NCBI RefSeq assembly: GCF_030816855.1
Contig: NZ_JAUSYK010000001.1
Coordinates: 2,480,001 to 2,544,000 of the forward strand
Source: Arthrobacter sp. B3I4
GTDB lineage: Bacteria > Actinomycetota > Actinomycetes > Actinomycetales > Micrococcaceae
Direction of reading: 5' to 3'
DNA length: 64,000 bases
A program made the translations under genes and the position numbers. Shown here piece by piece: positions 36,621 through 56,746 of this stretch (positions are counted from its first letter, which is position 1; each line of letters opens with the position of its first letter). The notes beneath the pieces were generated by a model. The model was given only the letters and a program-made list of their open reading frames with translations. It was not told the origin of the DNA and did not search any database.

Positions 36621-37916
36621 CTAGAGCCGTCGTCGTGCCAGCGGCCTGTCGCCGCCGCGGCGCAGCGTCAGCATCACAAGACCCGCAGCCAACAGACAGC
36701 ATGCTAAGAAGATGGATGTGGCCAGGAAGCTCCCGTGCGTCACGTCCTGCAGGTACCCGCCGACATACGGACCGACGAATCCGCCCAGGTTGCCCACCGC
36801 ATTGATCAGCCCCATGGCGGTGCCGGCGACGGCCACCGGCATGGCACGGGACGCAGACGCCCAGAAAGGTCCGTCGTAGGCCAGGGCGCCAGCGACGGCG
36901 ATGCTGATGAGGGTGACCGCAAGGAACGGGAAGTTGTCCCCCGTCGCCACGGAAATCACGAGGGCCACGGCGCCGACTGCCATCGACAGGAGCACGTGCG
37001 TGGAATAACGGCCGGAGCGGTCGGCCGCCTTCGCGTTGTACCAAAGGCCGAACATCGCCAGAACGTACGGAATGGCAGTGATCAGCCCCACCTCGACGGA
37101 CGAACCGGACGTGATCGTCTTGATCACGTGGGGCAGCCAGATGTTGATCCCGTAGAAGCCGATCTGGATGAGGAAGTACACCAGGGTCAGCCGCCACACC
37201 ACCGTGTTTGACATAACGTGGCGGAGGCCCAGTTTCTCCTGCTGGGGATGCGCTGCGGCGTCAGCAGCAAGTCCCTTCTCGATGTACTCACGCTCCTGAA
37301 CGGAACACCACTTCGCGTCGCGTGGATGGTCTGCGATCAGGGCCCACCACAGCGGCGCAGCGATAATGAACGGGAAAATGCCCTCGATAATGAACAGCCA
37401 CCGCCAGTCGGAGAAGGAGAGAATCCACCCGGAAAGCGGCGCGGTGATGATGGAAGCGATGGCAATATTCATCATCCAGAACGCGTAGGCCCGGGCACGC
37501 TCGGCGGCCGGGAACCAGTGGCTGATCAGGACAAGGATTGCCGGCCAGATCCCGGCCTCGGCCACGCCGAGGAAGAAACGCACCACGAGCAACTGGGTGA
37601 AGTCCTGGATGAAGCCGGACAGGATGGCCAGCACACCCCAGATCAGGACCATGATGCCCACGAACTTTTTCGCGCTCCAGTGTTCGGCGAGGTAACCGCC
37701 GGGTATCTGCAGGACGAGGTAGCCGATGAAGAAGATGCCGGCGGCCAGGCCCTGCTGGGCGGCGTCAATACCCAGGTCCTGGTGGAGCCCGTTGAGGGCG
37801 AACCCGATGTTGGTTCGGTCCATGAACGAGATGATGTAGACGACGATTGCGACCGGAATCAGCCGCTTCCACCTGGCGTTCCCCACCGCCGGTGCGGATA
37901 ACAGGTTCTGTGCCAT
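36621..37916 (-). CDS. MFS transporter, anion:cation symporter type
   Basis: 431 residues with twelve predicted helices. Start ATG 37916 with AGGAG upstream. VYIISFMDRTNIGFAL in helix 1, GYLVLQIPGGYLAEHW in helix 2 and RFFLGVAEAGIWPAIL in helix 4 are the signatures of the ACS family (hexuronate, phthalate, tartrate and other organic anions). A sugar-acid substrate would fit the nearby oxidative genes (inference). Its promoter (-10 TATAGC at 38086-38091 on minus) is overlapped in the -35 region by a TTGC-N6-GCAA palindrome. Confidence 0.88.
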   Translation of the reverse strand: MAQNLLSAPAVGNARWKRLIPVAIVVYIISFMDRTNIGFALNGLHQDLGIDAAQQGLAAGIFFIGYLVLQIPGGYLAEHWSAKKFVGIMVLIWGVLAILSGFIQDFTQLLVVRFFLGVAEAGIWPAILVLISHWFPAAERARAYAFWMMNIAIASIITAPLSGWILSFSDWRWLFIIEGIFPFIIAAPLWWALIADHPRDAKWCSVQEREYIEKGLAADAAAHPQQEKLGLRHVMSNTVVWRLTLVYFLIQIGFYGINIWLPHVIKTITSGSSVEVGLITAIPYVLAMFGLWYNAKAADRSGRYSTHVLLSMAVGAVALVISVATGDNFPFLAVTLISIAVAGALAYDGPFWASASRAMPVAVAGTAMGLINAVGNLGGFVGPYVGGYLQDVTHGSFLATSIFLACCLLAAGLVMLTLRRGGDRPLARRRL

Positions 37917-38109: not shown

Positions 38110-38123
38110 TTGCGGTTACGCAA
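38110..38123. promoter_or_regulatory. Operator-like palindrome A (MFS promoter)
   Basis: TTGCGGTTACGCAA (TTGC-N6-GCAA). A second overlapping repeat CGCAATTGTTGCG occupies 38102-38114, so three half-sites are present. It covers the predicted -35 of the MFS gene. Confidence 0.6.
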
Positions 38124-38196
38124 TAACATGTCTGGCGATTTCTCTTTGAGCCGCCCGGGTCCTCCCCTACGTCCCCGGCTACCCCGGCTGGCCTGG

Positions 38197-39264
38197 TCAA
38201 CGCGCGGCCGCGAGGTTTCCCAGGGTGACACGCAGGCTCTGCGATGACTGGCCCCGCTGCACAGTGACGTCGACCTGCTGCCCCGGGTCCTGCTTCCTGA
38301 GGGCCGCGAGCAGATCCGTCACATTCTTAACTTCCGACTGGCCGAACTTGGTGACGATGTCGCCCGCCTGCATCCCGGCTTGCTCCGCCGGGCTCCCTGC
38401 GGCCACGCTGACGACCAGCGCTCCGGACGCAGCCGGCAGGGAAAACCGCTGGGCGAGTTGCGGCGTGATGTCGGTGGGGACCACCCCAAGGGCAGCATGC
38501 TTGACCGAGCCGTTGGCCAGCAGTTGATCGGCCACGTCCATAACGGTCCGCGAGGGTGTAACAAAGCCGATCGCGACGGCTCCCGAGCTTGGCGGCAAAT
38601 ACGCCTCGGAGAGTCCGATTACCTGCCCGCTCGAATCGGCCACGGCACCGCCGGAGTTTCCCGGAGAGATGGGTGCGTCGGTCTGCAGCAGGTCGATGGC
38701 GCCGTGCGGAGATTCCTGGGAGGGTGGCATATTCCGGTGAAGGCTGGATACGATTCCGGCGGTGACGGTCTCCTCCAAGCCCAGCGGACTGCCTATGACG
38801 ACGGTCATTGAGCCAACCTCCGGGTCCGATGCGGCAAACCTCGCAGCGGGAAGGCCGGAACGGTCAACTTTGACCACTGCAACGTCGGTAACGTCGTCGA
38901 CGCCCGCAATCGTGCCCTGGGCCTCAGAACCATCTGCGAACCGGACCTGAACGTTGTTGTAGGGCTGCTTTTGCTGATTCTCCACGACATGGGCGTCCGT
39001 AACGATCGCGCCGTCGCTGTGGTAGATGACTCCGCTGCCGAGGCCGACAGCCGTCCGGATGGTAACCACGGACGGCTCCACTTCCTTCACCACGCCCGGG
39101 ACTGCAGGCAGGCCTGAGCCGGCAGCCACGGTAGCCGCTGGGGTTGAAACGCTCGACGACGGTGCTGACGACCCGGTTCCAGACGCTGGATTACCGGTGC
39201 ATGCGGTGAGGGTGATCATCGCTGCCGCGACTCCGGCAGCCGCATTGGTTCGCAAGGAATTCAT
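38197..39264 (-). CDS. Secreted S1C (HtrA/DegP-like) serine protease, lipoprotein
   Basis: 355 residues from ATG 39264 (GAGGGAAG upstream). Lipobox ITLTAC with Cys22, a Ser/Thr/Ala-rich linker, then a trypsin-like domain with His92 (TDAHVV), Asp127 (DVTDVAVVKV) and Ser204 (ISPGNSGGAV). A PDZ domain (about 265-350: SPAEQAGMQAGDIVTKFGQ) ends the protein. It probably works on misfolded proteins at the outer face of the membrane. The much longer open frame upstream overlaps the next gene and is not real. Confidence 0.92.
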   Translation of the reverse strand: MNSLRTNAAAGVAAAMITLTACTGNPASGTGSSAPSSSVSTPAATVAAGSGLPAVPGVVKEVEPSVVTIRTAVGLGSGVIYHSDGAIVTDAHVVENQQKQPYNNVQVRFADGSEAQGTIAGVDDVTDVAVVKVDRSGLPAARFAASDPEVGSMTVVIGSPLGLEETVTAGIVSSLHRNMPPSQESPHGAIDLLQTDAPISPGNSGGAVADSSGQVIGLSEAYLPPSSGAVAIGFVTPSRTVMDVADQLLANGSVKHAALGVVPTDITPQLAQRFSLPAASGALVVSVAAGSPAEQAGMQAGDIVTKFGQSEVKNVTDLLAALRKQDPGQQVDVTVQRGQSSQSLRVTLGNLAAAR

Positions 39265-39352
39265 GGTCTTCCCTCTTTGTAGTGGGCCGCGAGGCCGAAA
39301 CGGCTGGTGCAGCAAGCAAACGCGAGGCGCTCTCGTCCGGCGGGAAAAGCTT

Positions 39353-40069
39353 CTAATCGACGCCTTCCGTGATGCCGGGGTAGGGCGCAGTCTCATCCTC
39401 AAGGGCCTGTACTCCCCCGGGCACGTAACGCACGTGCACGCCGTGCTCCTGTTGTGCGGCCGACTGTTCCAGAACCGGCAGAACAGCGCGCGTAAACGCC
39501 TGGTCCTTGTCCGCGAGGTAGCGCGTGTAGGATCCGGGCAGCCGTGACAGCGGCCCCCTTCGCGGCTCGGACCGTGAGGCGTCCTTGGCCGCCCTGCCGG
39601 CGGGCCCGGCGTCGGCCGTGGAAGTGGTAAGGCTTTCGAAGGTCTTTCCCAGCGTGGCGCCGTAGAGCAGATGTGCGGCCAGCATGGTCCAGGCCCGGCC
39701 CGGTTTGTCCCGGTGGGCAGGCGGAAGGACGCCCAGTGCCGGCAACCATCCCTCGTAGCCTGCGGCCCAGAGAACCGCCCCGTAGGCCAGGCCGGTGGCG
39801 GGAGTGGACTTCTTTTTCCCGAGCATGGCGTAAAGGGCCCCGGCCGCCATCCCGTAGCCCAGGTGGGCGCCGACAGCCGCGCTTTTTGTGAGTGGCAATG
39901 GAAGGCGGGGGAAGAACGCGTCAATGATCCGCTTGGGAGGCTCATTGTTCATCACGCCGGAGGCGTCGGCGGTCAGGAGCAGTGTACTCATGGCGGCAGT
40001 AGCGGCGAGGCCCGCTAAGCCGCCTCGGGCGAGGGTCGGAAGGGGGCTGTCGCGGCGATCGATATCCAT
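39353..40069 (-). CDS. Membrane protein, DUF1440/YagU-like
   Basis: 238 residues. Hydrophobic, glycine- and alanine-rich segments (about 13-33, 64-84 and 90-108) come first; FPRLPLPLTKSAAVGAHLGYGMAAGALYAML is like the inner-membrane YagU/DUF1440 group. The C-terminal third is hydrophilic (TRYLADKDQAFTRAVLPVLEQ). Function unknown. ATG with AAGAGAT upstream. A TTGC-N6-GCAA palindrome lies 22-35 bp before the start, at the position of a promoter or operator. Confidence 0.6.
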   Translation of the reverse strand: MDIDRRDSPLPTLARGGLAGLAATAAMSTLLLTADASGVMNNEPPKRIIDAFFPRLPLPLTKSAAVGAHLGYGMAAGALYAMLGKKKSTPATGLAYGAVLWAAGYEGWLPALGVLPPAHRDKPGRAWTMLAAHLLYGATLGKTFESLTTSTADAGPAGRAAKDASRSEPRRGPLSRLPGSYTRYLADKDQAFTRAVLPVLEQSAAQQEHGVHVRYVPGGVQALEDETAPYPGITEGVD

Positions 40070-40090
40070 CTCTTTATGGAACGCCTATAT

Positions 40091-40104
40091 TTGCAGATCC
40101 GCAA
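40091..40104. promoter_or_regulatory. Operator-like palindrome B
   Basis: TTGCAGATCCGCAA, 22 bp upstream of the YagU-like gene (minus strand). Confidence 0.6.
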
Positions 40105-40125
40105 GCAATGTCGGGTGGCTGCGGC

Positions 40126-40587
40126 TCAGTCAGCTGCGATCAGTGCCTGTGGTGCGGCTTGTTTCATCCGCGTCTGGAGCCATTTCAGGTGCGTGCTGGT
40201 CTGGGCGTCACACTTGCCCACAACCGCCAGGAGTTCGGTGTCGCGCAGCCCCTGGCCGGCCTGTTTCACAAGGGTCCACGTGATATCGACCAGGGTGGCA
40301 ATCAGGTAGAGGTCTTGAAGGTCCCGGAGAAGTCCTACCGGTCCGGACCGGGTCTCTGAGAGTCCGTCGGCGTGGAGACGCTCGGGCTCATCGTCCTCGG
40401 TCACTTCTCCATACCGCTCAATGACCGGCGCCAGGGCCTTTTGATGTTCATCGCACTGTTGCGCGAGACTGTGGCACAGGAAGTGGACGTCGGGTTCTTC
40501 CCCGTGCCCGTCCGCGACCTGCCGGAAGGATTCGGCGAGGATCCCCTCGGACTTGTGCAGCAAACCAAGATAGACGGGAAGTTTCAT
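40126..40587 (-). CDS. Small helical protein coupled to the molybdopterin oxidoreductase
   Basis: 153 residues, predicted all-helical, no signal peptide. It has many His, Glu and Asp residues in helices (LLHKSEGILAESF, HFLCHSLAQQCDEHQKALAPVIERYGE, LVDITWTLVKQ). The spacing of Glu/His pairs resembles ferritin-like or haemerythrin-like metal sites, but no exact family was recognised. The ATG overlaps the stop of the molybdopterin gene (ATGA), so the two are made in step, suggesting a partner, maturation factor or redox subunit. Confidence 0.6.
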   Translation of the reverse strand: MKLPVYLGLLHKSEGILAESFRQVADGHGEEPDVHFLCHSLAQQCDEHQKALAPVIERYGEVTEDDEPERLHADGLSETRSGPVGLLRDLQDLYLIATLVDITWTLVKQAGQGLRDTELLAVVGKCDAQTSTHLKWLQTRMKQAAPQALIAAD

Positions 40588-43073
40588 GCCCTCTCCTCCT
40601 GCGTTGCAACAGCCGGTGGTGCCACCGGTGCGGTAGTTTCCTGTGCCTGAGCCGCCGGCCCGCCCGCTGTTGGGAGGATGGCCCGCACGCCGCGGCGGCC
40701 CTTGGCCGGGCGGGACGCCGTGGTGGTGGGCGCTAGGGAGGGTCCTGCACCGTCCGCGATTTTCTGGACCTTGACTGCAGCGTTTTTGAGGACCGGCTGT
40801 TTGGAAACGGGGTCCCACTCGGTAATCGTGAGTTCGTTCGCAGCCCGGTGGGTGGCACCGGGCTCCCCGGCCTGGTCCCAGTATCCGTAGTGGAACGGAG
40901 CGAAGACGGTGCCGTCACGGATGTCGCTGACCCGGACCGGCGCCGTGACGTACCCGCGTCGGGACTCGACCCTGGCGATGTCGCCTTCCTCCAGCCCCAG
41001 GCTGGCGGCGTCGGCTACAGATAATTCCACCCACACGTCCGGGGCAGCCCCGTTCAGTTGCGGAGAACGTCCGGTCTTGGTGCGCGTGTGGAAATGGTAG
41101 ACAGTCCGCCCCGTGGTGTACCGGTAGGGGTACCCATCATCCGGGGTTTCGTGGGCGGGCTGGTAGGTCGCCGTTTTGAAAATTGCCCGGCCCTTCGGGT
41201 TGTTTGCCTTGTAAGTCTCCGGCCCGACGGAGGCTCCGGTGAGCAGGTCGTGCCCGTAGGTTTCGCAATAGTCCGGATCGGTGGCGAACACCCCGTCCCG
41301 GTACATCCGCACCGTACCGTCCGGGTGCTCCTCGTTGCAGGGCCACGGGACGCCGCTGCCGCCGCGGAGCTTGTCGTAGCTGAGGCCCGTGTAGTCACAG
41401 GGACGGCCGCGGGTGCACTCACGCCACGCGTTGAAAGCTTCCTCGGGCTCCTGCCACGTGAGCAGCGGTGTCCCGTCCTGCTGGGTGAACCCCATCCGGC
41501 GGGAGTAGTCGAGGAAGGTGTCCAGATCGCTGCGCGCCTCCCCCGGCGGTTCTACTGCCTTTTCGGAGAGGTGAACGGTGCGGTTCACGTTGGTAAAGGT
41601 GCCCGTCTTCTCCCCCCACCCCGCGGCCGGGAGGACGACGTCGGCGTACTGGGCCGTCTCCGTCAGGTACATGTCCTGGACCACAAGGAAGAGGCTGTCG
41701 CTGTCGAGGATGTCCCGGATGCGTGGCAGCTGCGGCATCGAAACGGCAGGGTTTGTCGCCGAGATCCACAGGAACTCGATGGACCCCTGCTCCACGTAGC
41801 GGAAGATCTGCATCGCGTGGGTTGGGGGCGCCCAGTGCGGAATGATGGCCGGGTCAACGTTCCAAAGCTCCGCCAGTTCCTTGACATGTTCCGGGTTTTC
41901 CCAATTCCGGAAGCCCGACAAGTCGCCGTCGGCACCGCATTCGCGATTGTTCTGCGCGGTTGGCTGCCCGTTCATCTGCAGTATTCCGCAGCCGGGTTTG
42001 CCGATGAGGCCACGCAGCAGGTGCAGGTTGTTCACGGCGCACGAGGCGGCCGTGGCCTGGGAGGATTGGTAAAAGCCTTGAAGGACTGTGGAAAGGACGC
42101 GTTCGGAGGTGCCGAAAATTTCAGCTGCACGCCGTACATCGGCAGGGTCCACACCGCAGGTTTCGGCGACGGCTTCCGGTGTCCATGGCTCGACGGTGGC
42201 CCGCAGCTCCTCGACGTTGACGGTGTGCCGGTCGATGTAGTCCTGGTCGATCCATTCGTTGGCGAACAGCTCCCGAACCAGCCCGTGCATGAGTGCCAGG
42301 TTCGTTCCCGGCCGGACAGCCAGGTGCACGTCGGCGTGCCGGGCGACTTCGGTTTCGCGGGGATCCACGCAGACCAATCTCGGCCGGTCCGGACCCGCGA
42401 GGCGGTCGAGGACGCGCATCCACAAAACAGTCTGCGTTTCAGCCATGTTGTGCCCGAAGAGGAACATGGCGTCGCACTCGTCGATATCGACGTAGCTGCC
42501 GGGCTGGCCGTCGGAGCCGAAAGACTCCTTCATGGCTGCGGCTGCTGTGGCGGTGCAGAGACGGGTGTTGCCGTCCATGTGCGGAGTGCCGATGCCGGCC
42601 TTGCCAACAATGGCCTGGGCGTAATACTCCTCCAGGAACAATTGGCCGCTGGTGTAGAACCCGTGGGACAAGGGACCTTTCGTCTCCAGGAGCCCGCGGC
42701 TGCGTGAGACGATCCGTTCCATCGCGGTGTCCCAGTCCGTTTCAACCAGTTTCCCGTTCTCCCGCACCAGCGGGCGGGTCAGCCGATCCTTGTTCTGAAC
42801 TCCCTGCCAGCTCGCGAACAAACCTTTGGGTCCCAGCCGGCCGTGGTTGACGATGTCCGTGGCCCGGCCGCGGACCCCTACCATGGCTCCGCCCCTGACT
42901 CCGATGTCGATGCCGCACCCGTTGCTGCAGAGGACGCACGCGGACTGGACCCACTTTTCCACATCAGCTTCAACGACCCCCTGGGCGAGTACCTGATCAA
43001 CCCGCACCGGCCATCGCTCGCCGCGGGCAAACGGCGTCCGGGTCCCCCAGATCTCGGCAATACGATCAACCAC
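40584..43073 (-). CDS. Molybdopterin oxidoreductase (nitrate reductase/formate dehydrogenase-like catalytic subunit)
   Basis: 829 residues; GTG start with GGAGGAG about 10 nt upstream; no Tat signal, so cytoplasmic. Cys46, Cys49 and Cys53 (SACVLCSNGCG) form three ligands of the N-terminal [4Fe-4S] site; the fourth, usually in GRLCxKG, is Gly81 (GRLGPKG). Cys173 in DGNTRLCTATA is the likely Mo ligand, as in NapA/NasC-type enzymes. Later blocks bind the two pterins (NGQPTAQNNRECG, ATNPAVSMPQ, VVLPAAGWGEKTGTFTNVNRTVH), and a C-terminal DMSO-reductase-type barrel follows. The substrate is unknown; no separate electron-transfer subunit lies beside it. A Pro/Ala-rich tail of about 60 residues is unusual. 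Confidence 0.85.
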   Translation of the reverse strand: MVDRIAEIWGTRTPFARGERWPVRVDQVLAQGVVEADVEKWVQSACVLCSNGCGIDIGVRGGAMVGVRGRATDIVNHGRLGPKGLFASWQGVQNKDRLTRPLVRENGKLVETDWDTAMERIVSRSRGLLETKGPLSHGFYTSGQLFLEEYYAQAIVGKAGIGTPHMDGNTRLCTATAAAAMKESFGSDGQPGSYVDIDECDAMFLFGHNMAETQTVLWMRVLDRLAGPDRPRLVCVDPRETEVARHADVHLAVRPGTNLALMHGLVRELFANEWIDQDYIDRHTVNVEELRATVEPWTPEAVAETCGVDPADVRRAAEIFGTSERVLSTVLQGFYQSSQATAASCAVNNLHLLRGLIGKPGCGILQMNGQPTAQNNRECGADGDLSGFRNWENPEHVKELAELWNVDPAIIPHWAPPTHAMQIFRYVEQGSIEFLWISATNPAVSMPQLPRIRDILDSDSLFLVVQDMYLTETAQYADVVLPAAGWGEKTGTFTNVNRTVHLSEKAVEPPGEARSDLDTFLDYSRRMGFTQQDGTPLLTWQEPEEAFNAWRECTRGRPCDYTGLSYDKLRGGSGVPWPCNEEHPDGTVRMYRDGVFATDPDYCETYGHDLLTGASVGPETYKANNPKGRAIFKTATYQPAHETPDDGYPYRYTTGRTVYHFHTRTKTGRSPQLNGAAPDVWVELSVADAASLGLEEGDIARVESRRGYVTAPVRVSDIRDGTVFAPFHYGYWDQAGEPGATHRAANELTITEWDPVSKQPVLKNAAVKVQKIADGAGPSLAPTTTASRPAKGRRGVRAILPTAGGPAAQAQETTAPVAPPAVATQEERA

Positions 43074-43220
43074 GACCGACCAACTCCTCCATCGCAGGAG
43101 CCCGGGCAGGAACGTTCCGGCGGATCAGCATGGAGCCGCTGACGCGCCGGTGATGACGAGTCCTTCCCGGACAGGCAGCCGATTTGACCGCCTCCACTGA
43201 CGCTACGCTAGACCCGATAC

Positions 43221-43234
43221 TTGCAAGGGCGCAA
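43221..43234. promoter_or_regulatory. Operator-like palindrome C1
   Basis: TTGCAAGGGCGCAA, in the divergent gap between the molybdopterin oxidoreductase and glucose dehydrogenase genes, on the oxidoreductase side. Confidence 0.6.
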
Positions 43235-43278
43235 CCGCCGCTTGTCTCCTGGCGTGATACCGCAAAGTAAGCGAACCG

Positions 43279-43292
43279 TTGCGCTTATGCAA
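43279..43292. promoter_or_regulatory. Operator-like palindrome C2
   Basis: TTGCGCTTATGCAA, exactly 58 bp from C1 and 47 bp before the glucose dehydrogenase ATG. Confidence 0.6.
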
Positions 43293-43339
43293 ATAGTGCG
43301 GGAAGCTTGGCAGTGAATGCCCTTCTTAAAGGAGAGACG

Positions 43340-44410
43340 ATGAAGGCGTTGGCTGTTACCCCCGGCAAAGAGAATTCCCTGCGGCTGCTTGACGTCCCCG
43401 AGCCGGTTCCCGACGAAGGTCCCGTTCTTGTGCAAGCACTGGCCGTCGGTCTCTGCGGAACTGACAAGGAGATCATCGCCGCAGAATACGGAGAGGCCCC
43501 GTCCGGCCGCGAGAACCTGGTTCTCGGCCACGAGAACCTGGGGCGGGTTCTCGAAGCGCCGACCGATTCCGGGTTGGCGGAAGGTGACCTGGTGGTGGGA
43601 ATTGTGCGCCGCCCCGATCCCGAGCCCTGCGCCGCGTGCGCGGCCGGCGAATGGGACATGTGCCTGAACGGGAAATACACCGAACACGGCATCAAGGGCC
43701 TGGACGGGTTCGCCCGCGAACGGTGGCGGGGTGACCCGGAAGACATGGTCAAGCTCGATGCCAGGCTGGACGAGGTGGGGGTGCTGCTGGAACCGACTAC
43801 CATCGTGGCTAAAGCCTGGGAACAGATCGGCCGGATCGGACGGCGGGCGTACTTCAACCCGCACACTGTCGTGGTGACCGGCGCTGGCCCCGTTGGCCTG
43901 CTGGCGGCCTTGCTTGGTGTTCAGCAGGGCCTGGACGTGCACGTCTTCGACATCGTGAAGGATGGTCCGAAACCTGGCCTGGTCCGCGATCTTGGCGCGA
44001 CCTACCACAGCGAACCGCTGCCGGAATCCGGGATCATTGCGGACGTCCTGGTCGAATGCACCGGGGTGACGCCTGTGGTTCTTGACGTTCTCACGACCCA
44101 CGCCCGGGACGCCATCACCTGCCTTACCGGCGTCTCCAGTACCGGTAAGCAAACGCGGGTGGACGTCGGCGCCCTTAACCGCGAGACGGTATTGACCAAC
44201 GGGGTGGTATTCGGCAGCGTCAACGCCAACCGCCGTCATTACGATGCTGCGGCGAAGGCATTAAGCGAGGCCAATGAGAGCGTGTTGCGCCGCTTGATAA
44301 CGCGCAGGCTGCCGTTGGCAGAATTTGCCGACGCTTTCGAAGCCCATCCCGACGACGTAAAAGTCGTCCTCGACATCCCGACTGGCGGCGGCGTTGGCGG
44401 GACGCACTAG
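43340..44410 (+). CDS. Zinc-dependent glucose 1-dehydrogenase (archaeal-type MDR)
   Basis: 356 residues; AAAGGAGAG precedes the ATG. A medium-chain dehydrogenase with catalytic zinc ligands in VGLCGTDKEI and LGHENLG, the Cys cluster CAACAAGEWDMC (structural zinc region) and KYTEHGIKGLDGFARE, typical of archaeal-type glucose dehydrogenases. The Rossmann motif is VVTGAGPVGLLAALLG and NRETVLTNGVVFGSVNANRRH is the NADP-discriminating and C-terminal part. It oxidises glucose or a similar aldose to the lactone. The aldose epimerase gene follows after 2 bp and would supply the right anomer. Confidence 0.9.
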   Translation: MKALAVTPGKENSLRLLDVPEPVPDEGPVLVQALAVGLCGTDKEIIAAEYGEAPSGRENLVLGHENLGRVLEAPTDSGLAEGDLVVGIVRRPDPEPCAACAAGEWDMCLNGKYTEHGIKGLDGFARERWRGDPEDMVKLDARLDEVGVLLEPTTIVAKAWEQIGRIGRRAYFNPHTVVVTGAGPVGLLAALLGVQQGLDVHVFDIVKDGPKPGLVRDLGATYHSEPLPESGIIADVLVECTGVTPVVLDVLTTHARDAITCLTGVSSTGKQTRVDVGALNRETVLTNGVVFGSVNANRRHYDAAAKALSEANESVLRRLITRRLPLAEFADAFEAHPDDVKVVLDIPTGGGVGGTH

Positions 44411-44412
44411 CT

Positions 44413-45375
44413 ATGACGACACCACCGGCGCACCGCCCCGCGGACAGGGGGCACCGGCTTTCCTCCGGCCGGCAATACGAGCTCCGTTCGGGCCGGCAGC
44501 ACGTGGCGTTGACCGAGGTCGGCGGAGCCTTGCGGGACTACCTCGTGGACGGGCGTCCCCTGCTGGACGGGTACGGCCCGGATGAGATGTGTACCGGTGC
44601 CAGGGGACAGTCCCTCATCCCCTGGCCCAACCGGGTCAAAGACGGACGCTACGAATGGGACGGCCGGCCGTTGCAGCTTGACCTCAGCGAGCCGGACAAG
44701 GGAGGGGCAATCCATGGGCTCACCCGGTGGCGGAACTGGGAGCTCCTGGAACAAGCAGAGGACAGCATCTCGTTCACCTACATGCTGCACGCCTGCCAGG
44801 GCTGGCCCTGGGTGCTCGAGTGCCGCCTCGACTACCACCTCGGCGATGACGGCCTAAGCGTGCGGACCACTGCCGTGAACCGCAGCGCCGCACCATGCCC
44901 CTACGGGACAGGGGCCCACCCCTATCTGAGTCTGGGCGGGCCGGCCATTGACTCCGGGTTGGTCCGGGTTCCCGGGCGGACCTACCTGCCGGTGGACAGT
45001 GCAGGCATCCCCACCGGCCGCCGGCCGGTCGAGGGTACGGTGTACGACCTGCGGGAACTTCAGCAAATCGGGGACCGCCCCGTCGATGTCGCCTACACAG
45101 ACCTGATCAGAGGGGCGGACGGCCGGGCCCGGGTCACATTTGCCAAACCGGACCGTTCCGCCGGGGTGGAGTTATGGGTCGACGAGGCCTACCCCTATCT
45201 GGAGATCTTTACCGGTGACACACTCCCCCAGCAGGACCGGCGGCGGACCGGGCTGGGAGTCGAGCCGATGACCTGCGCCCCCGACGCCTTCAACTCGGGC
45301 GAAGGCCTGGTCACCCTGCGCCCGGGCGAATCGCACACGGGCCAATGGGGCATCAGCCCCAGCCCTGTGCTCTGA
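44413..45375 (+). CDS. Aldose 1-epimerase family protein
   Basis: 320 residues. Conserved acid/base residues are His in AIHGLTRWRNWEL, His in GAHPYLSLG and Glu in TGLGVEPMTCAPDAFNSG; substrate contacts are near LIPWPNRVKDGRYEWDG. Mutarotases interconvert alpha and beta aldopyranoses. It starts 2 bp after the glucose dehydrogenase stop and serves the same pathway. Cytoplasmic. Confidence 0.9.
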   Translation: MTTPPAHRPADRGHRLSSGRQYELRSGRQHVALTEVGGALRDYLVDGRPLLDGYGPDEMCTGARGQSLIPWPNRVKDGRYEWDGRPLQLDLSEPDKGGAIHGLTRWRNWELLEQAEDSISFTYMLHACQGWPWVLECRLDYHLGDDGLSVRTTAVNRSAAPCPYGTGAHPYLSLGGPAIDSGLVRVPGRTYLPVDSAGIPTGRRPVEGTVYDLRELQQIGDRPVDVAYTDLIRGADGRARVTFAKPDRSAGVELWVDEAYPYLEIFTGDTLPQQDRRRTGLGVEPMTCAPDAFNSGEGLVTLRPGESHTGQWGISPSPVL

Positions 45376-45421
45376 TCCGCGTTCCGGCCCCATCCACGCC
45401 GCAGGTTCCTCAATGAAACCA

Positions 45422-45435
45422 TTGCGTTTGTGCAA
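45422..45435. promoter_or_regulatory. Operator-like palindrome D (not in front of a gene)
   Basis: TTGCGTTTGTGCAA, in the convergent gap between the epimerase (plus) and the MarR gene (minus). A relic of a promoter or an auxiliary site are both possible. Confidence 0.5.
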
Positions 45436-45485
45436 TTACTGCGGTTCAATTAAGTCATGTGCTGCCATTGCTGGCGTCGGCCGCC

Positions 45486-45986
45486 TTACTTCGTCGCTCC
45501 CAAGGTGAAGCGGCCGTCAGAGGTCCCCTGGCCCCCGGCTGCGGATGCGAAGGCCTCCAGTGCCGAAGCCAGCGCAGGCCGCTTTCCGGCCGGCATTCGT
45601 GAAATGACCTCGGCGATGGCTTGTCGCCGGTGCTCCAGCACAGTCTGGACGAGGTCCTGGCCTTTCCCGCTCAGTTCCAGCCGGACGTACCGACGGTCCA
45701 CCGGATCGTCCCGTCGTTCCAGCAGACCAGCCACCACCAGGCGGTCGCAGATGCGGGTGGCGTTTGAGGCGTGGACACCCAGCTCGGCAGCTACTCCACC
45801 CAGGTTCTGCGCCCCGCGCGAATGGATGAGCACCAGCACCCGCAGTTGTGGAGTGTTCACTGTGTCTTCGACTTCGGCAACTGATTTCGCCACCACGCGC
45901 AGCAGCACGTCGGCGGCTTTCATCACGGCATCCACTTCGCGGCCGGCGAAACCCGGCATCCCGTTCAAAGCGTCAGATGTATCCAT
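45486..45986 (-). CDS. MarR family transcriptional regulator
   Basis: 166 residues from ATG 45986. Helical dimerisation N-terminus (VDAVMKAADVLLRVVAKSVAE), winged helix (LRVLVLIHSRGAQNLGGVAAELGVHASNATRICDRLVVAGLLERRDDPVDRRYVRLELSGKG) and a C-terminal helix. The QLRVLVLI-HASNATR-D-RYV pattern is classic MarR. A TTGC-N6-GCAA palindrome 23-36 bp upstream suggests autoregulation; MarR operators are often such palindromes. It is the only regulator inside the region and is the candidate for all six sites (inference). Confidence 0.88.
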   Translation of the reverse strand: MDTSDALNGMPGFAGREVDAVMKAADVLLRVVAKSVAEVEDTVNTPQLRVLVLIHSRGAQNLGGVAAELGVHASNATRICDRLVVAGLLERRDDPVDRRYVRLELSGKGQDLVQTVLEHRRQAIAEVISRMPAGKRPALASALEAFASAAGGQGTSDGRFTLGATK

Positions 45987-46008
45987 GAGGACTAGTTTCC
46001 ACTGATAT

Positions 46009-46022
46009 TTGCCAGCCTGCAA
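46009..46022. promoter_or_regulatory. Operator-like palindrome E (MarR and oxidation operon)
   Basis: TTGCCAGCCTGCAA in the 98-bp divergent gap between the MarR gene and the GMC operon, so it can control both. Confidence 0.6.
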
Positions 46023-46084: not shown

Positions 46085-46552
46085 ATGAAACTGCACCACA
46101 CAGCGGAGCCGGTGGCCGGCCCGCTCACCGGAATCGACCGGCTCATCAGGAACGTGCAGACGGGCCGGTTCGAACGGTCCCTGTCCGCGCTGACCGCAGC
46201 CGGCGCCCTGGTTACAGCGGCGGAGATTTTCCTGGAACACGACAAGGCCAGTTTCGGCAACAAGTGGATGTGGGTGCCGGTTGCGCTCGGCCCCGTGGGT
46301 GCGGCAGCAGGAGTCGCCGGTGTCTTCAGCCGCCGGATGGCCAAGACGGCCCTTCCGGTCGCCAGCGCAGCCATCGTCGCCAACGGCCTGCAGGGCACCT
46401 GGCTGCACCTGCGGGGCGTGAGGCAAAAGCCCGGCGGACTGTCCAACCTGCGCTACAACCTGGAAATGGGTCCCCCGCTGTTCGCGCCGCTGCTGGTCAC
46501 GCTCGTCGGCGGCATGGGTCTGCTGGCCTCCGTGCTCCGGAGGGAACCGTGA
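46085..46552 (+). CDS. Small four-helix membrane protein of the GMC operon
   Basis: 155 residues with GGAAGGA before ATG 46085. Four predicted membrane helices (about 35-55, 61-83, 90-108 and 130-150) and a soluble N-terminus with a short loop (RGVRQKPGGLSNLRYNLEMGPP). Not recognised. It overlaps the following subunit-3-like gene by four bases (GTGA). As GMC-type gluconate dehydrogenases are normally held at the membrane by a cytochrome c subunit absent here, this protein may take the anchoring role (inference). Confidence 0.65.
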   Translation: MKLHHTAEPVAGPLTGIDRLIRNVQTGRFERSLSALTAAGALVTAAEIFLEHDKASFGNKWMWVPVALGPVGAAAGVAGVFSRRMAKTALPVASAAIVANGLQGTWLHLRGVRQKPGGLSNLRYNLEMGPPLFAPLLVTLVGGMGLLASVLRREP

Positions 46553-47190
46553 CCGGGCTGCCGCTTGAGGACGCCGACGGCGGAGGCCGGTACCCGGGTT
46601 TCAGCGCGCTCGCCCAGGCAAAACACTGGGACCGCGCCACGGCCGCCGTCGTACAGTCCCGCCTGGGGCTCCCTCCGGATGTCCGTTTTTTCAGCCCCGC
46701 CGAGGAAGCCGCGGCGCGTGCCCTTTTCGACCTGCTGCTGGACCAGCACGCTGAACCCCGGGTGCCGGTGGTGAACCTGGTGGACGCGCGCCTGGCCGAG
46801 GAAGAAACCGACGGCTGGCATTACGACAACATGCCGCGTGACGGCGAGGCGTGGCGTGCCTCCCTGGCCGGATTGGACCAGGAGGCGCGGGTCCGTGAAG
46901 GTTGCGCCTTTGCCCTGCTTAGCCGGGACGGGCAGGCCCGGCTGCTGCAGGACATCTGCGACCTGGACCGCGAGCTCTGGCAGGGCATGCCTGCCGACCG
47001 CGTCTGGGGGTTGTGGACCCGGTACGCCTGCACCGCTTTTTACTCCCACCCCCTGGCCTGGGACGAAATCGGTTTCGCCGGCCCGGCCTATCCCCGCGGT
47101 TACAAGAACCTGGGCGTGGACCGGCTGGAACCGTTCGAGGTGCGCGACGTCCGTCCCGGTGCGGACCCGACCCACGGAGACAACCGGTGA
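46549..47190 (+). CDS. Gluconate 2-dehydrogenase subunit 3-like protein
   Basis: 213 residues from a GTG overlapping the preceding stop. The helical order FFSPAEEAAARALFDLLLDQHAEPRVPVVNLVDARLAE then RLLQDICD and WTRYACTAFYSHPLAWDEIGFAGPAYPRGYKNLG is that of the small subunit of GMC-type sugar acid dehydrogenases (Gluconate_2-dh3). No Tat signal is present, although it is usual in the family, so the complex may stay inside the cell. Overlaps the GMC gene by four bases. Confidence 0.82.
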   Translation: MTGLPLEDADGGGRYPGFSALAQAKHWDRATAAVVQSRLGLPPDVRFFSPAEEAAARALFDLLLDQHAEPRVPVVNLVDARLAEEETDGWHYDNMPRDGEAWRASLAGLDQEARVREGCAFALLSRDGQARLLQDICDLDRELWQGMPADRVWGLWTRYACTAFYSHPLAWDEIGFAGPAYPRGYKNLGVDRLEPFEVRDVRPGADPTHGDNR

Positions 47191-48842
47191 ACCGCGTCCG
47201 CGAACGCAACCAATCGGCCTGGCTGTTGCCCGCCGGGCCCGGCAGCAACCTCCGGCTGCGGGAAAACATGCGCAGGTACGGCGAGGACGATGAAGTGGAC
47301 ATCGTGATCGTCGGCTGCGGGGCCGGGGGCGCGACACTGCTGCAGCGGCTCACACGCGCGGGATGGCGCGCCGTGGCCCTGGACGCAGGACCCTTCTGGG
47401 AACCGGAGCAGGACTGGGTCAGCGACGAAGCCGGCTCGCACCACCTGTACTGGACGGAACCGCGGGTGATCACCGGTACGGACCCGGTGCCGCTGGGTTC
47501 GAATAATTCCGGCCGGGGCGTCGGCGGCTCGATGGTCCATTTCGCCGGCTACACGCCAAGGTTCCACCCAAGCGACTTCCGCACGCTCAGTGCGGACGGC
47601 GTAGGAGCTGACTGGCCGCTGGAGTACGGGGATCTGCGTCCCTTCTACGAAGACATCGAGGCAGAACTGCCCGTCGCGGGTGAACACTGGCCGTGGGGCG
47701 AGGCGCACAGCTACCCGCACCGCCCGCACCCGGTGTCCGGTAACGGCGAGCTGTTCCTGCGCGGCGCCCGCGCCTGCGGCATCACGGCGAGGGTGGGGCC
47801 CGTCGCCATTGCCAACGGCCGTTTCGGCAACCGCCCGCACTGCATCTACCGCGGGTTCTGCCTGCAGGGGTGCAAAGTCAACGCCAAAGCTTCCCCGCTG
47901 ATCACCCACGTCCCGGATGCCCTGGCACACGGCGCCGAGATCCGGCCGGACTCGATGGCCACCAGGATCGGCTTCGACGAGCGCACCGGCATGGCAACCG
48001 GCGTCGAGTACCTTCACGGCGGTATCCGGCGGTTCCAACGCGCCCGGCTGGTCGCGGTAGCGGGCTACTCGATCGAGACGCCGCGACTGCTGTTGAATTC
48101 CACGTCACCGCGGTTTCCGGACGGCATGTGCAACGACTTCGACCAGGTGGGCCGGTATCTGATGGTGCAGGGGGCACCGCAGACTGCGGGACGGTTCCAT
48201 GCGGAAGTGCGGATGTGGAAGGCCCCTCCCCCGGAAGCCAGCACCGAGGACTTCTACGAAACCGATCCGGAAAAACCCTACAAACGCGGGTTCTCCATCC
48301 AGTGTGTGTCCCCGCTGCCCATCACCTGGGCCGAGCACGTGGCCGCCCAGGGACACTGGGGCCCGGCGCTGCGAAGGTACATGAGCGACTATCCGCATTG
48401 GGCCTGCCTCGGCGCCTTGTGCGAGTTCCTTCCCCTCGAGGGGAACAGGGTGACGCTGGCGGACGAAACGGACCGCAACGGCATTCCGGTGGCCCGCTTC
48501 AGCTATAGCCAGTGCGATAACGACCGGCAGCTGATGACCGCAGCGCAGCAGGTCATGGAGCGGATCCTGGCCGCTGCCGGCGCGGAGGAAGTGATCACCA
48601 TCGACCGCTACGCCCACCTGGTGGGCGGCGCCCGGATGGCGGCCACGGAACAGACGGGCGTGGTGGACGCCAACTCCCGCAGTTTCGCCGTACCCAACCT
48701 GTTGATCACCGACGGCAGCGTCCTGCCCACCCAAGGCAGCGCCAACCCGGCCCTGACCATTATGGCGTTGGCGGCACGGGCCGCCCGTGTCCTGATAGAA
48801 GGCGCCCGCACGGGCGCCCCGATGAGCACGAAGGAAGACTGA
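47187..48842 (+). CDS. GMC oxidoreductase (large subunit)
   Basis: 551 residues from GTG 47187. The FAD motif IVIVGCGAGGATLLQRL is followed by GRGVGGSMVHFAGYTPRFH, the ThR-binding region. A Cys-rich block CIYRGFCLQGCKVNAK is typical for gluconate/sorbitol dehydrogenases. The C-terminal GMC-C part has TIDRYAHLVGGARMA and LITDGSVLPTQGSANPALTIMALAARAA. The usual HN pair near the active site appears as H..GG and N. It probably oxidises a sugar, sugar alcohol or sugar acid together with the preceding subunit. No signal peptide. Confidence 0.85.
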   Translation: MNRVRERNQSAWLLPAGPGSNLRLRENMRRYGEDDEVDIVIVGCGAGGATLLQRLTRAGWRAVALDAGPFWEPEQDWVSDEAGSHHLYWTEPRVITGTDPVPLGSNNSGRGVGGSMVHFAGYTPRFHPSDFRTLSADGVGADWPLEYGDLRPFYEDIEAELPVAGEHWPWGEAHSYPHRPHPVSGNGELFLRGARACGITARVGPVAIANGRFGNRPHCIYRGFCLQGCKVNAKASPLITHVPDALAHGAEIRPDSMATRIGFDERTGMATGVEYLHGGIRRFQRARLVAVAGYSIETPRLLLNSTSPRFPDGMCNDFDQVGRYLMVQGAPQTAGRFHAEVRMWKAPPPEASTEDFYETDPEKPYKRGFSIQCVSPLPITWAEHVAAQGHWGPALRRYMSDYPHWACLGALCEFLPLEGNRVTLADETDRNGIPVARFSYSQCDNDRQLMTAAQQVMERILAAAGAEEVITIDRYAHLVGGARMAATEQTGVVDANSRSFAVPNLLITDGSVLPTQGSANPALTIMALAARAARVLIEGARTGAPMSTKED

Positions 48843-48844
48843 TC

Positions 48845-50635
48845 ATGGCAACTACAGTGGCTGACTACCTGCTTTCCCGCCTGGGCGAGTGGGGCATTGA
48901 CAAGGTCTTTGGTTTCCCCGGCGACGGCATCAACGGCATCCTCGCCGCCTTCGAAAAAGCGGGCAACAAACCCAAGTTCATCCAGGCCAGACACGAAGAG
49001 ATGGCCGCGTTCGAGGCGGTGGGCTACGCCAAATTCGGTGGCCGGGTGGGCATCTGCATGGCGACCTCCGGTCCCGGGGCAATCCACCTGCTCAACGGGC
49101 TGTACGACGCCAAGCTGGACCATGTACCGGTGGTGGCCATCGTGGGGCAAACCGCGAGGAGTGCCATGGGCGGCTCCTACCAGCAGGAAGTTGACCTGGT
49201 GTCCCTGTTCAAGGACGTGGCCTCCGATTACGTCCAGATGGTCACGGTTCCGCAGCAGCTGCCCAACGTCATCGACCGCGCCATCCGGATAGCGGAGGCG
49301 CAGCGGGCCCCCACCGCCGTGATCATCCCGGCCGACGTCCAGGAACTCGACTACGCCGCCCCCACCCACGAGTTCAAAATGGTGCCCTCCAGCGTCGGCA
49401 TCCGCTGGCCTGACATCCAGCCCGACAGTGACGCGATCCGCGGAGCCGCGCAGCTGCTGAACGAGGGCACCAAGGTGGCCATCCTGGTCGGACAGGGAGC
49501 CCGCGGGGCCGCTGCCGAGGTACGGCAGGTGGCCGAGCTCCTCGGCGCCGGCGTGGCCAAGGCACTGCTGGGCAAGGACTCGCTGCCCGATGACCTGCCC
49601 TACGTCACCGGGTCCATCGGACTGCTCGGCACCCGGCCCAGTTACGAGATGATGCGTGACTGCGACACCCTGCTCACGGTGGGCTCCAGCTTCCCCTACA
49701 CCCAGTTCCTCCCCGAACCGGGGCAGGCCCGCGGGGTCCAGATCGACGTGGACCCGAAAATGATCGGGCTGCGTTACACCAACGAGTTCAACATCGTCGC
49801 CGACGCCGCCACCGCCCTGCGGGCACTGATCCCGCATCTGGACCGCAAGCAGGACCGGTCCTGGCAGGAGGACCTGGAGGCGTCCATCAGCCGCTGGTGG
49901 GAAACCATGCACGAGGAGGCCATGGTCAGCGCCGACCCCGTCAATCCGATGCGGCTCTTCGCCGAGCTCTCCACCCGGCTGCCGGAGGACGCGATGTTGA
50001 GCGCCGATTCGGGCTCGTCGGCCAACTGGTATGCGCGGCAGCTGAAGTTCCGGGGCGGGGTCCGCGGTTCACTGTCAGGGAACCTCGCCACCATGGGCCC
50101 CGGTGTTCCCTACGCCATCGGCGCCAAGTTCGCCCATCCCGGCCGCCCGGCCATCGCTTTCGCCGGTGACGGGGCGATGCAGATGAACGGTCTCGCCGAG
50201 TTGATAACCATTAAGCACTACTGGCGGGAGTGGGATGATCCGCGCCTGGTGGTGGCCGTCCTGCACAACAACGACCTTAACCAGGTCACCTGGGAAATGC
50301 GGGCCATGGGCGGGGTGCCCGCGTTCCGGGAGTCCCAGGCCCTCCCCGACGTCGACTACGCCGGATTCGCCGAGAGCCTGGGGCTGCAGGGCATCCACGT
50401 GGACCATCCCGACGACGTCGGGCCGGCCTGGGAAAAGGCACTCAGCGCCGACCGGCCCACGGTCCTGGACGTCCGCACCGACCCGGACATTCCGCCGATC
50501 CCGCCGCACGCCACGTTCGAGCAGGCCCGAAAGACGGGCGAGGCCATGATCAAGGGCGACGACAGTGCCTGGGGCGTGGTCAAGGAAGGGGTTAAGACCA
50601 AGATCCAGGAATTCCTGCCACACAAGGAGGGCTGA
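48845..50635 (+). CDS. Thiamine diphosphate-dependent enzyme, pyruvate oxidase-like
   Basis: 596 residues, 2 bp after the GMC stop. The catalytic Glu51 is in ARHEEMAAFEAVGYAKF, the ThDP site is GDGAMQMNGLAEL (Gly441-Asp442) with NN in VLHNNDLNQ, and a central FAD/ADP-type domain lies between. Sequence features match pyruvate oxidase/acetolactate-synthase-like enzymes (POX5 type), though substrate cannot be told. It could cleave a 2-keto acid produced by the other enzymes of the operon (inference). Confidence 0.85.
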   Translation: MATTVADYLLSRLGEWGIDKVFGFPGDGINGILAAFEKAGNKPKFIQARHEEMAAFEAVGYAKFGGRVGICMATSGPGAIHLLNGLYDAKLDHVPVVAIVGQTARSAMGGSYQQEVDLVSLFKDVASDYVQMVTVPQQLPNVIDRAIRIAEAQRAPTAVIIPADVQELDYAAPTHEFKMVPSSVGIRWPDIQPDSDAIRGAAQLLNEGTKVAILVGQGARGAAAEVRQVAELLGAGVAKALLGKDSLPDDLPYVTGSIGLLGTRPSYEMMRDCDTLLTVGSSFPYTQFLPEPGQARGVQIDVDPKMIGLRYTNEFNIVADAATALRALIPHLDRKQDRSWQEDLEASISRWWETMHEEAMVSADPVNPMRLFAELSTRLPEDAMLSADSGSSANWYARQLKFRGGVRGSLSGNLATMGPGVPYAIGAKFAHPGRPAIAFAGDGAMQMNGLAELITIKHYWREWDDPRLVVAVLHNNDLNQVTWEMRAMGGVPAFRESQALPDVDYAGFAESLGLQGIHVDHPDDVGPAWEKALSADRPTVLDVRTDPDIPPIPPHATFEQARKTGEAMIKGDDSAWGVVKEGVKTKIQEFLPHKEG

Positions 50636-50638
50636 CGC

Positions 50639-51760
50639 ATGGCCGTGCCAGCCCTATCCGTTGCCGAGGCACCCATCACGGCCCTGCAGGCCACCGTCTA
50701 CACCGTGCCCACCGACGGTCCCGAAGCTGACGGCACGTTCAGCTGGGACTCCACCACCATGGTGCTGGTCCACGCGGCCGCGGGCGGAAAGACCGGACTT
50801 GGCTGGACCTACGCCCCGGCGGCGGCGGCGCGGCTGGTTGAAGGGCTTTTGGGCCCCGCCGTCCAGGGCGTCGACGCACTTGACGTGCCCGCCGCAGCAG
50901 CGGCGATGGCGCGGGCGGTGCGCAACCCCGGCCGCACGGGCCTGGCGTCCTACGCCATCTCGGCCGTCGACTGCGCGCTCTGGGACCTGAAGGCCCGCCT
51001 GCTGGACCTGCCGCTGCACCGGCTCCTCGGAGGAGTCCGGGACAAAGTGGACGTCTACGGAAGCGGGGGGTTCACCACCTATTCGGACGATCAGCTCCGG
51101 GAGCAGCTTGAGGGCTGGGCGTCGGGCCAGCGCATTCCCCGGGTGAAGATCAAGATCGGTCAGGACGGCGGAACAGACGAGCCCCGGGACCTGGAGCGCA
51201 TCCGGCAGGCACGCGCCGCCGTCGGGCCCGGGACGGAACTCTTCGTCGACGCCAACGGCGCCTACACCGCCAAGCAGGCGGTCCGTGTTCTCCGCAGGGC
51301 TGCCGAAGACCACGTCACGTGGTTTGAGGAGCCCGTCTCCAGCGACGACCTCGCGGGCCTCCGTGTTGTCCGCGGCGCGGTGGACGCCGACGTTGCCGCG
51401 GGTGAATACGGCACCGGGCTCCCCTATTACCAGCGCCTGTGCGCAGCGGACGCTGTGGACTGCGTGCAGGCCGATGTGAGCAGGTGCGGCGGCATCAGCG
51501 AATGGCTGCGCATCGCTGCCGTGGCCGCCGCCCACGGGCTGGAAGTTTCGGGGCACTGCGCTCCCCACCTCAGCGCCGCCGTCGCCGCCGCCACCCCCAA
51601 CTTCCGCCACCTGGAATGGTTCCACGACCACGTCCGCATCGAGAACCTCTTCTTCGACGGCACCCTGGACCCGGATGGCGGGTGGGTGCGGTCCGGACCC
51701 GGGCCCGGCAACGGACTGACACTCCGAAGCGCCGCCGCCGAACCTTACCGGGTCCGCTGA
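50639..51760 (+). CDS. Enolase-superfamily (mandelate racemase-type) sugar-acid dehydratase/racemase
   Basis: 373 residues, starting 3 bp after the ThDP gene. Catalytic residues are visible: KxK motif Lys170-Ile-Lys172 (VKIKIG), metal ligands Asp204 (DANGAY), Glu230 (WFEEPV) and Glu256 (AGEYGTG), and His306 (SGHCAPH). A capping domain lies at the N-terminus. The set is that of acid sugar dehydratases or of the muconate/dipeptide epimerase groups; the KxK and GEYGTG suit dehydratases. A sugar acid from the dehydrogenases would be a logical substrate (inference). Confidence 0.85.
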   Translation: MAVPALSVAEAPITALQATVYTVPTDGPEADGTFSWDSTTMVLVHAAAGGKTGLGWTYAPAAAARLVEGLLGPAVQGVDALDVPAAAAAMARAVRNPGRTGLASYAISAVDCALWDLKARLLDLPLHRLLGGVRDKVDVYGSGGFTTYSDDQLREQLEGWASGQRIPRVKIKIGQDGGTDEPRDLERIRQARAAVGPGTELFVDANGAYTAKQAVRVLRRAAEDHVTWFEEPVSSDDLAGLRVVRGAVDADVAAGEYGTGLPYYQRLCAADAVDCVQADVSRCGGISEWLRIAAVAAAHGLEVSGHCAPHLSAAVAAATPNFRHLEWFHDHVRIENLFFDGTLDPDGGWVRSGPGPGNGLTLRSAAAEPYRVR

Positions 51761-53027: not shown

Positions 53028-55421
<2,394 letters not shown>

Positions 55422-55488
55422 AGCTTAGAACAGGGGGTCCCCTTCGGCCCGGACCGGCTGGCGGCACAACGGGACGCCGGGGCGGCAA

Positions 55489-55517
55489 TTGTGATATTCC
55501 GCGGCCTCCCACAGAAT
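55489..55517 (+). promoter_or_regulatory. Promoter of the type III PKS operon
   Basis: TTGTGA (-35, 55489-55494), 17-nt spacer, CAGAAT (-10, 55512-55517), then 5 nt to the ATG. The message would be leaderless. Confidence 0.5.
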
Positions 55518-55522
55518 GAACC

Positions 55523-56746
55523 ATGACGGTCTACCTGAGGTCCCTTGAAACTGCTGTTCCGCCCACCGTGCTGATCCAGTCCGAAGCCCGGGACGTGTTC
55601 GCCGCCCAGCCGGGATTGAGCCGGCTGGGATCCCGGCTCATCAGTACGTGTTTCGACTCGGCAGCCATCGACACCCGCTACACCGCAGTGAGCGAGCTGA
55701 CCACCGGCAGCAGGGCCGAGAATCCGCAGTTTTTTGACCCCGGCACCGGCCAGTTGCTGAGCCCGAGCACCAAGGTGCGGAACGACATCTTCGCCGTCGA
55801 GGCCACCAAACTCTTTATTGAGGCAGCGGAGAAGGCGGTCGCCGCGTCCCCGGGCATCGATCCCGGCGACATCACGCATCTGGTGACGGTTTCCTGCACC
55901 GGGTTTTTCAACCCCGGTCCCGACTACAAGATTGTCCGGGCGCTCGGGCTCAATCCGTCCGTCCAGCGCTACCATCTCGGTTTCATGGGCTGCTACGCCG
56001 CCTTCCCTGCCCTCCGGGCGGCAAAGTCCTTCTGCGACGCCGACCCGGAAGCAGTGGTGATGGTGGTCTGTGCCGAGCTGTGTTCCCTGCACGTGCGGAC
56101 CTCCAACGATCCGGACACCATTATGGGTTCGGCCTTATTCGCCGACGGCGCTGCTGCCGCGATCATCAGCGCCCGAGACTTCCCGGGCCAGCCGGCGCTG
56201 ATGACCCTGGACCACTTCGAGACGGTCCTGACGCCGGTCGGTGAGGAAGCGATGGCCTGGAACATCGGCGACGAAGGCTTTGAGATGGTCCTGGGGACCT
56301 ACGTTCCGCACATCATCGACGACCATGTCGTCGGTGCCCTCGAACCGCTTTTGTCCCGGGACGACTCGCTGGCCGGACTTCCCTATCGTGACATCCAGCA
56401 CTGGGCCATCCATCCCGGCGGCCGCAGCATCCTGGACAAGGTCCAGACCCGGCTGGATCTCAGCGACGACCAGCTGGTCCCGGCCCGCGAAACGCTGCGC
56501 AACTACGGCAACATGAGCAGCGCCACGGTGCTCTTCGTGATCCGGCACATCCTGGACCTCCCGGCAGGAACCGGCCCTGCGGCGGCCGGCGACGCCGGCG
56601 CGGAACGTATCTGCTCGATGGCGTTCGGGCCCGGGCTGACGGTGGAAACCGCGCTCTTCACCAGGCTTCCGGCGCCGCCGGCGGATCAGCCGGACCCGGA
56701 TGCGGCACTGGCCGCTGCGCTCCGGCCCGCGTCGGCCCTGGCCTGA
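55523..56746 (+). CDS. Type III polyketide synthase
   Basis: 407 residues of a chalcone/stilbene synthase-fold enzyme. The catalytic triad is Cys157 (GFMGCYAAFPAL), His297 (WAIHPGGRSI) and Asn330 (NYGNMSSAT). The enzyme extends an acyl-CoA starter with malonyl-CoA units; fatty acyl starters giving alkylresorcinols or pyrones are usual in actinobacteria. It heads an operon with a methyltransferase and a FAD monooxygenase. The C-terminus is extended by a Pro/Ala-rich tail. Confidence 0.93.
   Translation: MTVYLRSLETAVPPTVLIQSEARDVFAAQPGLSRLGSRLISTCFDSAAIDTRYTAVSELTTGSRAENPQFFDPGTGQLLSPSTKVRNDIFAVEATKLFIEAAEKAVAASPGIDPGDITHLVTVSCTGFFNPGPDYKIVRALGLNPSVQRYHLGFMGCYAAFPALRAAKSFCDADPEAVVMVVCAELCSLHVRTSNDPDTIMGSALFADGAAAAIISARDFPGQPALMTLDHFETVLTPVGEEAMAWNIGDEGFEMVLGTYVPHIIDDHVVGALEPLLSRDDSLAGLPYRDIQHWAIHPGGRSILDKVQTRLDLSDDQLVPARETLRNYGNMSSATVLFVIRHILDLPAGTGPAAAGDAGAERICSMAFGPGLTVETALFTRLPAPPADQPDPDAALAAALRPASALA

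Follow-up and report, generated by a model that had tools for sequence, protein, structure and literature searches.

Six clustered palindromes as candidate operators of a MarR-family regulator encoded among putative sugar-oxidation genes of Arthrobacter sp. B3I4

MarR-family autorepressors with local regulons include E. coli MarR, HpaR, PcaV and others. The gene cluster described here lies in a 64,000-nucleotide stretch of DNA from Arthrobacter sp. B3I4 (the window), and shares with these systems a winged-helix MarR protein, a dyad in front of its own gene and adjacent catabolic genes. The regulator family is known and the regulation is of an ordinary kind. By comparison, the plan of E. coli marO differs from the operator proposed here, TTGCG-N4-CGCAA, and the cluster is further distinguished from the autorepressors by an additional putative operator behind marR.

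The regulator (166 amino acids; 45486..45986, minus strand) contains a MarR winged-helix domain (PF01047, 49.6 bits against a cut-off of 24.6), and its AlphaFold2 model (mean pLDDT 74) retrieves MarR proteins as the top PDB matches, with 2nyx first. This entry, Rv1404 of Mycobacterium tuberculosis, is the closest solved relative (E 1.2e-34 by sequence, 39% identity by fold match). Passages on Rv1404 describe acid-stress adaptation coordinated via Rv1405c, a neighbouring methyltransferase (among PMC10312376, PMC9044949, PMC6536590, PMC7525159, PMC13002591, PMC5526998), and these passages give no operator. The two proteins are alike in sequence and fold, whereas their neighbours differ, being sugar-oxidation genes in the cluster and a methyltransferase at Rv1404. 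Since no methyltransferase gene, the Rv1404 type of target, is found among the scanned neighbours of marR, the protein is not classed as an Rv1404 orthologue. In the mycobacterial loci fetched, a dyad occurs near marR in three of four, lying before marR in L117 and behind it in L118 and L119, with none in L116; in L117 there are, besides, genes related to those for the TPP enzyme, the MR/MLE protein and glucose dehydrogenase introduced below. No description of the operator or regulon was found in the literature covered, a scope outside which most subscription papers fall, so that absence from print is weakly supported.

Gene identities were assigned by Pfam, NCBIfam and PDB comparisons, and operon limits were inferred from gene spacing. 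The minus strand carries an MFS transporter (36621..37916), whose best NCBIfam model is a D-galactonate transporter with a score below its cut-off, an HtrA-type serine protease (38197..39264), a DUF6789 protein (39353..40069), and a small protein without a Pfam family (40126..40587) that overlaps the end of the molybdopterin oxidoreductase gene (MoOR, 40584..43073). On the plus strand, a zinc-type glucose dehydrogenase (GDH, 43340..44410) is followed by an aldose 1-epimerase (mutarotase, 44413..45375). Beyond marR, the divergent GMC operon on the plus strand comprises a hypothetical head gene (46085..46552), a gluconate 2-dehydrogenase subunit 3-like protein (46549..47190), a GMC oxidoreductase closest to FAD glucose/fructose dehydrogenases (47106..48842, start codon provisional), a pyruvate-oxidase-like TPP enzyme (48845..50635), and an MR/MLE enolase-superfamily protein that resembles sugar-acid dehydratases, which are among its named solved relatives (50639..51760). 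The predicted gene set fits an oxidative sugar route.

The six palindromes reported by the first-pass annotation were all recovered as exact TTGC-N6-GCAA at 38110, 40091, 43221, 43279, 45422 and 46009, within 38110-46022. One hundred dinucleotide-preserving shuffles gave a mean of 0.93 matches per window and a maximum of three, with none of the 100 reaching six. When TTGC/GCAA spacers of 0 to 15 were compared, N6 alone recurred; N10, N14 and N15 appeared once each and the remaining spacers not at all. Placement outside genes, as the annotation had it, holds for all six sites if overlapping spurious ORFs are ignored and not otherwise. Five sites precede genes; the one at 45422 is not in front of any annotated gene, and sits where mutarotase and marR converge with their 3' ends.

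Across the 3.61-Mb genome the bare frame occurs at 36 places against 41 for a reversed control, and is thus not enriched genome-wide. Thirty of these places fall outside the cluster, corresponding to about 0.07 expected per 7.9 kb, and a GC-frame heuristic places 25 of the 30 within predicted coding sequence. The annotation had held that a motif spread over the chromosome, also within genes, would speak against a regulon; outside the cluster the bare 14-bp frame does show such a spread, the cluster itself does not, and the grouping of the six palindromes is real and local. Three of the five outside-cluster places not in predicted coding sequence are copies of GGAGGGTTGCCGGCCAGCAA: the intergenic matches at genome positions 1910096, 3235838 and 3237387 (L048, L055) share this near-identical sequence, which is a dispersed repeat and has no relation to the regulon. 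Further regulon members in the same genome were sought with an extended pattern at up to three mismatches; 52 places were obtained against 37 for reversed controls, and additional members are not proposed on this basis. Among the matches listed are five of the six window sites, without 45422.

The sites are conserved with their genes to different degrees. MarR relatives at E <= 1e-20 are present in 24 of 150 genus genomes, our own included, by searches in which a portion of each genome's first-look candidates was scored. From 73 exact sites with full flanks, in 21 stretches around MarR relatives, the consensus is TTGCG-N4-CGCAA with A/T-rich arms. Every marR copy in the genus stretches is preceded by a site (22/22), with no mismatch in 16 and one in six. 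A site also lies 59-79 bp upstream of 16 of 17 GDH matches, the sole exception being a 68%-identical copy in genome G009, and 158-227 bp upstream of all 12 MFS matches, with varying N6 in both sets. Searches for GDH at E <= 1e-60 and for MFS at E <= 1e-150 gave matches in 14 and 11 of the 150 genomes, respectively, all of which carry MarR. The MFS site is retained even where the gene is distant from marR, about 0.8 Mb away in G133 and on a separate contig in G003. The marR copy of G133 itself (L060) has no exact site on either side. By comparison, an exact site lies within about 300 bp of only one of five DUF6789 orthologues (L080), no site stands upstream of the close orthologues of MoOR found in L079, L098 and L104, and the nearest site to HtrA in relatives, if any, is several hundred bp off. 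Conservation support is thus weak for 40091 and little or none for 43221.

The occurrence of the sites follows the regulator. Among 55 of 61 named loci, six duplicates having been dropped, a site precedes marR in 12 of 13 at MarR identity of at least 60%, 7 of 17 at 55-59%, 1 of 6 at 45-54% and 1 of 19 below 45%, as compared with 9 of 1774 control windows, relatedness being uncorrected. L081, at 79% MarR identity, nevertheless has no exact site before marR. A stricter site pattern was matched in 17 of 21 MarR-bearing genomes (E <= 1e-30) as compared with 28 of 129 others, again uncorrected for relatedness, and 33 of its 36 places in the MarR genomes lie within 20 kb of marR; in our own genome this pattern has zero matches. 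A search of 347 genomes of the order gave the GMC-operon head gene in nine. In six of these the genome has a MarR match (E <= 1e-25) and the head-gene locus one or more exact sites; the other three have neither, although MarR absence is not absolute, ten candidates having been scored in each genome. The head gene of G379, about 6 kb from marR, has two exact sites, and the marR locus itself has none. The conserved placement, co-occurrence with MarR and decay with MarR identity support the idea, put forward by the annotation, of a single local regulon centred on MarR. The longer consensus, the coincidence of a half-site with a -35-like hexamer and the antisense-directed element at 45422, both of the latter described below, go beyond what the annotation had noted.

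A promoter-like geometry is seen at the palindromes. Read toward the regulated gene, the first half-site forms a -35-like hexamer, and a -10-like hexamer lies 17-18 nt further. At the putative MFS operator (38110..38123, minus strand) this is GAAGAT at 17 nt, and at the putative MoOR operator (43221..43234, minus strand) TAGCGT at 18 nt. The putative GDH operator (43279..43292, plus strand) has GAAGCT at 17 nt, and TACTTT at 17 nt on the opposite strand. The site assigned to DUF6789, in a probable DUF6789-HtrA operon, lies 21 bp before the gene (40091..40104, minus strand) with TTCCAT at 17 nt, and that of marR lies 22 bp before the gene (46009..46022, minus strand) with GAAACT at 17 nt. In these two cases the ATG follows the hexamer by 6 and 7 nt, respectively, a spacing as in leaderless messages. 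Four of the six proposed -10 hexamers fit NANNNT, while on the opposite strands only that of 43279 does. Among 177 oriented flanks of the genus, NANNNT occurs 46 times at 17 nt and 17 times at 18 nt (other offsets, 1-15), and among 100 flanks from other taxa 16 and 15 times (other offsets, 0-8); at other sites in our own genome (60 flanks), the counts are three and zero. A generic sigma-70 scan called none of the proposed promoters, which consequently rest on comparison, and for the GMC operon no -10 could be recognised adjoining 46009.

From these positions, their conservation, the hexamer geometry and the co-occurrence with MarR, we infer, with a probability of roughly 0.84, that the MarR protein encoded mid-cluster uses the palindromes as its operators. 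MarR, presumably as a dimer, would bind TTGCG-N4-CGCAA with its A/T-rich arms. Because one half-site doubles as the -35-like hexamer, bound MarR would cover the -35 region and block RNA polymerase, which suggests repression by promoter occlusion. The predicted targets are marR itself, the MFS transporter and GDH-mutarotase, with the divergent GMC-TPP enzyme-MR/MLE operon as a probable further target and DUF6789-HtrA and MoOR as possible ones. Release of MarR would most likely be brought about by a metabolite of the oxidative sugar route, such as a lactone, an aldonate or a later intermediate, a guess from gene content. If so, a conserved actinobacterial MarR clade gains a concrete candidate operator, a target list and a testable mechanism, and one regulator is tied to a largely uncharacterised oxidative sugar route of GDH, GMC dehydrogenase with its subunit 3, TPP enzyme and MR/MLE protein.

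The palindromes could instead be chance matches, or mere promoter -35 signals without a common regulator, as might be read from a bare frame no commoner genome-wide than its reversed control and from TTGCNN at -35 spacing. We consider this the least probable of the alternatives, since six sites fall within 7.9 kb, and since a -35 hexamer constrains one half whereas both halves are kept as N6 changes. A different regulator might also own the dyads, with MarR as a bystander or a target. Crp/Fnr-type sites follow the plan TTGAT-N4-ATCAA, which the TTGCG-N4-CGCAA layout resembles. However, the sites track MarR across genomes, decay with MarR identity and adjoin marR, and those outside the cluster in our own genome lack a regulon-like pattern, making such an owner improbable.

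The position of the palindrome at 45422..45435 between convergent gene ends would suit a transcriptional terminator or RNA hairpin as its only function. This is very unlikely: the region folds no better than shuffles (z 0.05 on the plus strand, -1.26 on the minus strand), a scan, itself weak, gives no terminator-like match there, and conservation is one-sided, reaching a hexamer and an ATG. The dyad is exact at this place in 14 of 22 marR copies. The conserved flank lies on one side only, the other not being conserved past the arm, and among 17 loci with a convergent site, TTCAAT or TTGAAT stands at 17 nt antisense to marR in 16, with ATG 6 nt on in 15. In the window, the plus-strand TTCAAT (45445-45450) is followed 6 nt on by the ATG at 45457, within a putative antisense start region at 45451..45459.

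The site at 45422, a putative MarR operator, carries a conserved promoter-like element that is directed antisense across marR toward the divergent GMC operon. As the GMC operon lacks a -10 next to 46009, this element may start the GMC message as a long leader. No terminator-like match was found on the plus strand before the GMC operon, by a scan whose yield does not exceed chance. We put forward, tentatively and at less than even odds, that 45422 marks a MarR-repressed promoter reading antisense through the whole of marR, yielding either an antisense RNA or a GMC-operon leader of about 630 nt, as a feedback switch. When MarR is inactivated, fresh synthesis of the repressor would then be opposed as well, and this positive feedback would make the sugar pathway switch-like; were the antisense element real, it would constitute a compact repressor-antisense feedback switch. 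In excludons, a long leader runs antisense to a neighbouring gene. The cluster shares with them a promoter-like element, here behind marR and aimed through it at the divergent GMC operon, but differs in that MarR would repress the very promoter, proposed at 45422, that runs against its own gene.

The antisense transcript may be leaderless, opening a frame of about 182 codons opposite marR. This frame is open in 15 of 16 convergent-site loci (codon-shuffle expectation, 0.11-0.20 per gene), and also in 16 of 24 marR copies without the convergent site (expectation, 0.04-0.45), so its openness is not specific to that site. Its first residues are poorly conserved, and a protein gene is not claimed. 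DNA looping across marR was likewise considered and is not claimed: in the 11 loci with both flanking sites these are separated by 587 or 590 bp, a spacing that also follows from the constant length of marR.

Several further observations were made in the relatives and in the window. In some relatives marR is present in two or three copies, of which several have sites of their own (G055, G017 and G140; L062, L063, L066, L067 and L072); one of the G140 copies is split into two pieces (274730-275014 and 274998-275222). In the window, an ABC/UvrA-like ATPase gene adjoins a type III polyketide synthase-like gene at 53028-56746. In four relatives (L159, L162, L166 and L167), an extra exact dyad, TTGCGAAGGAGCAA, lies about 19 bp before the MFS start, over the likely ribosome-binding site, and represents either chance or a second control point.
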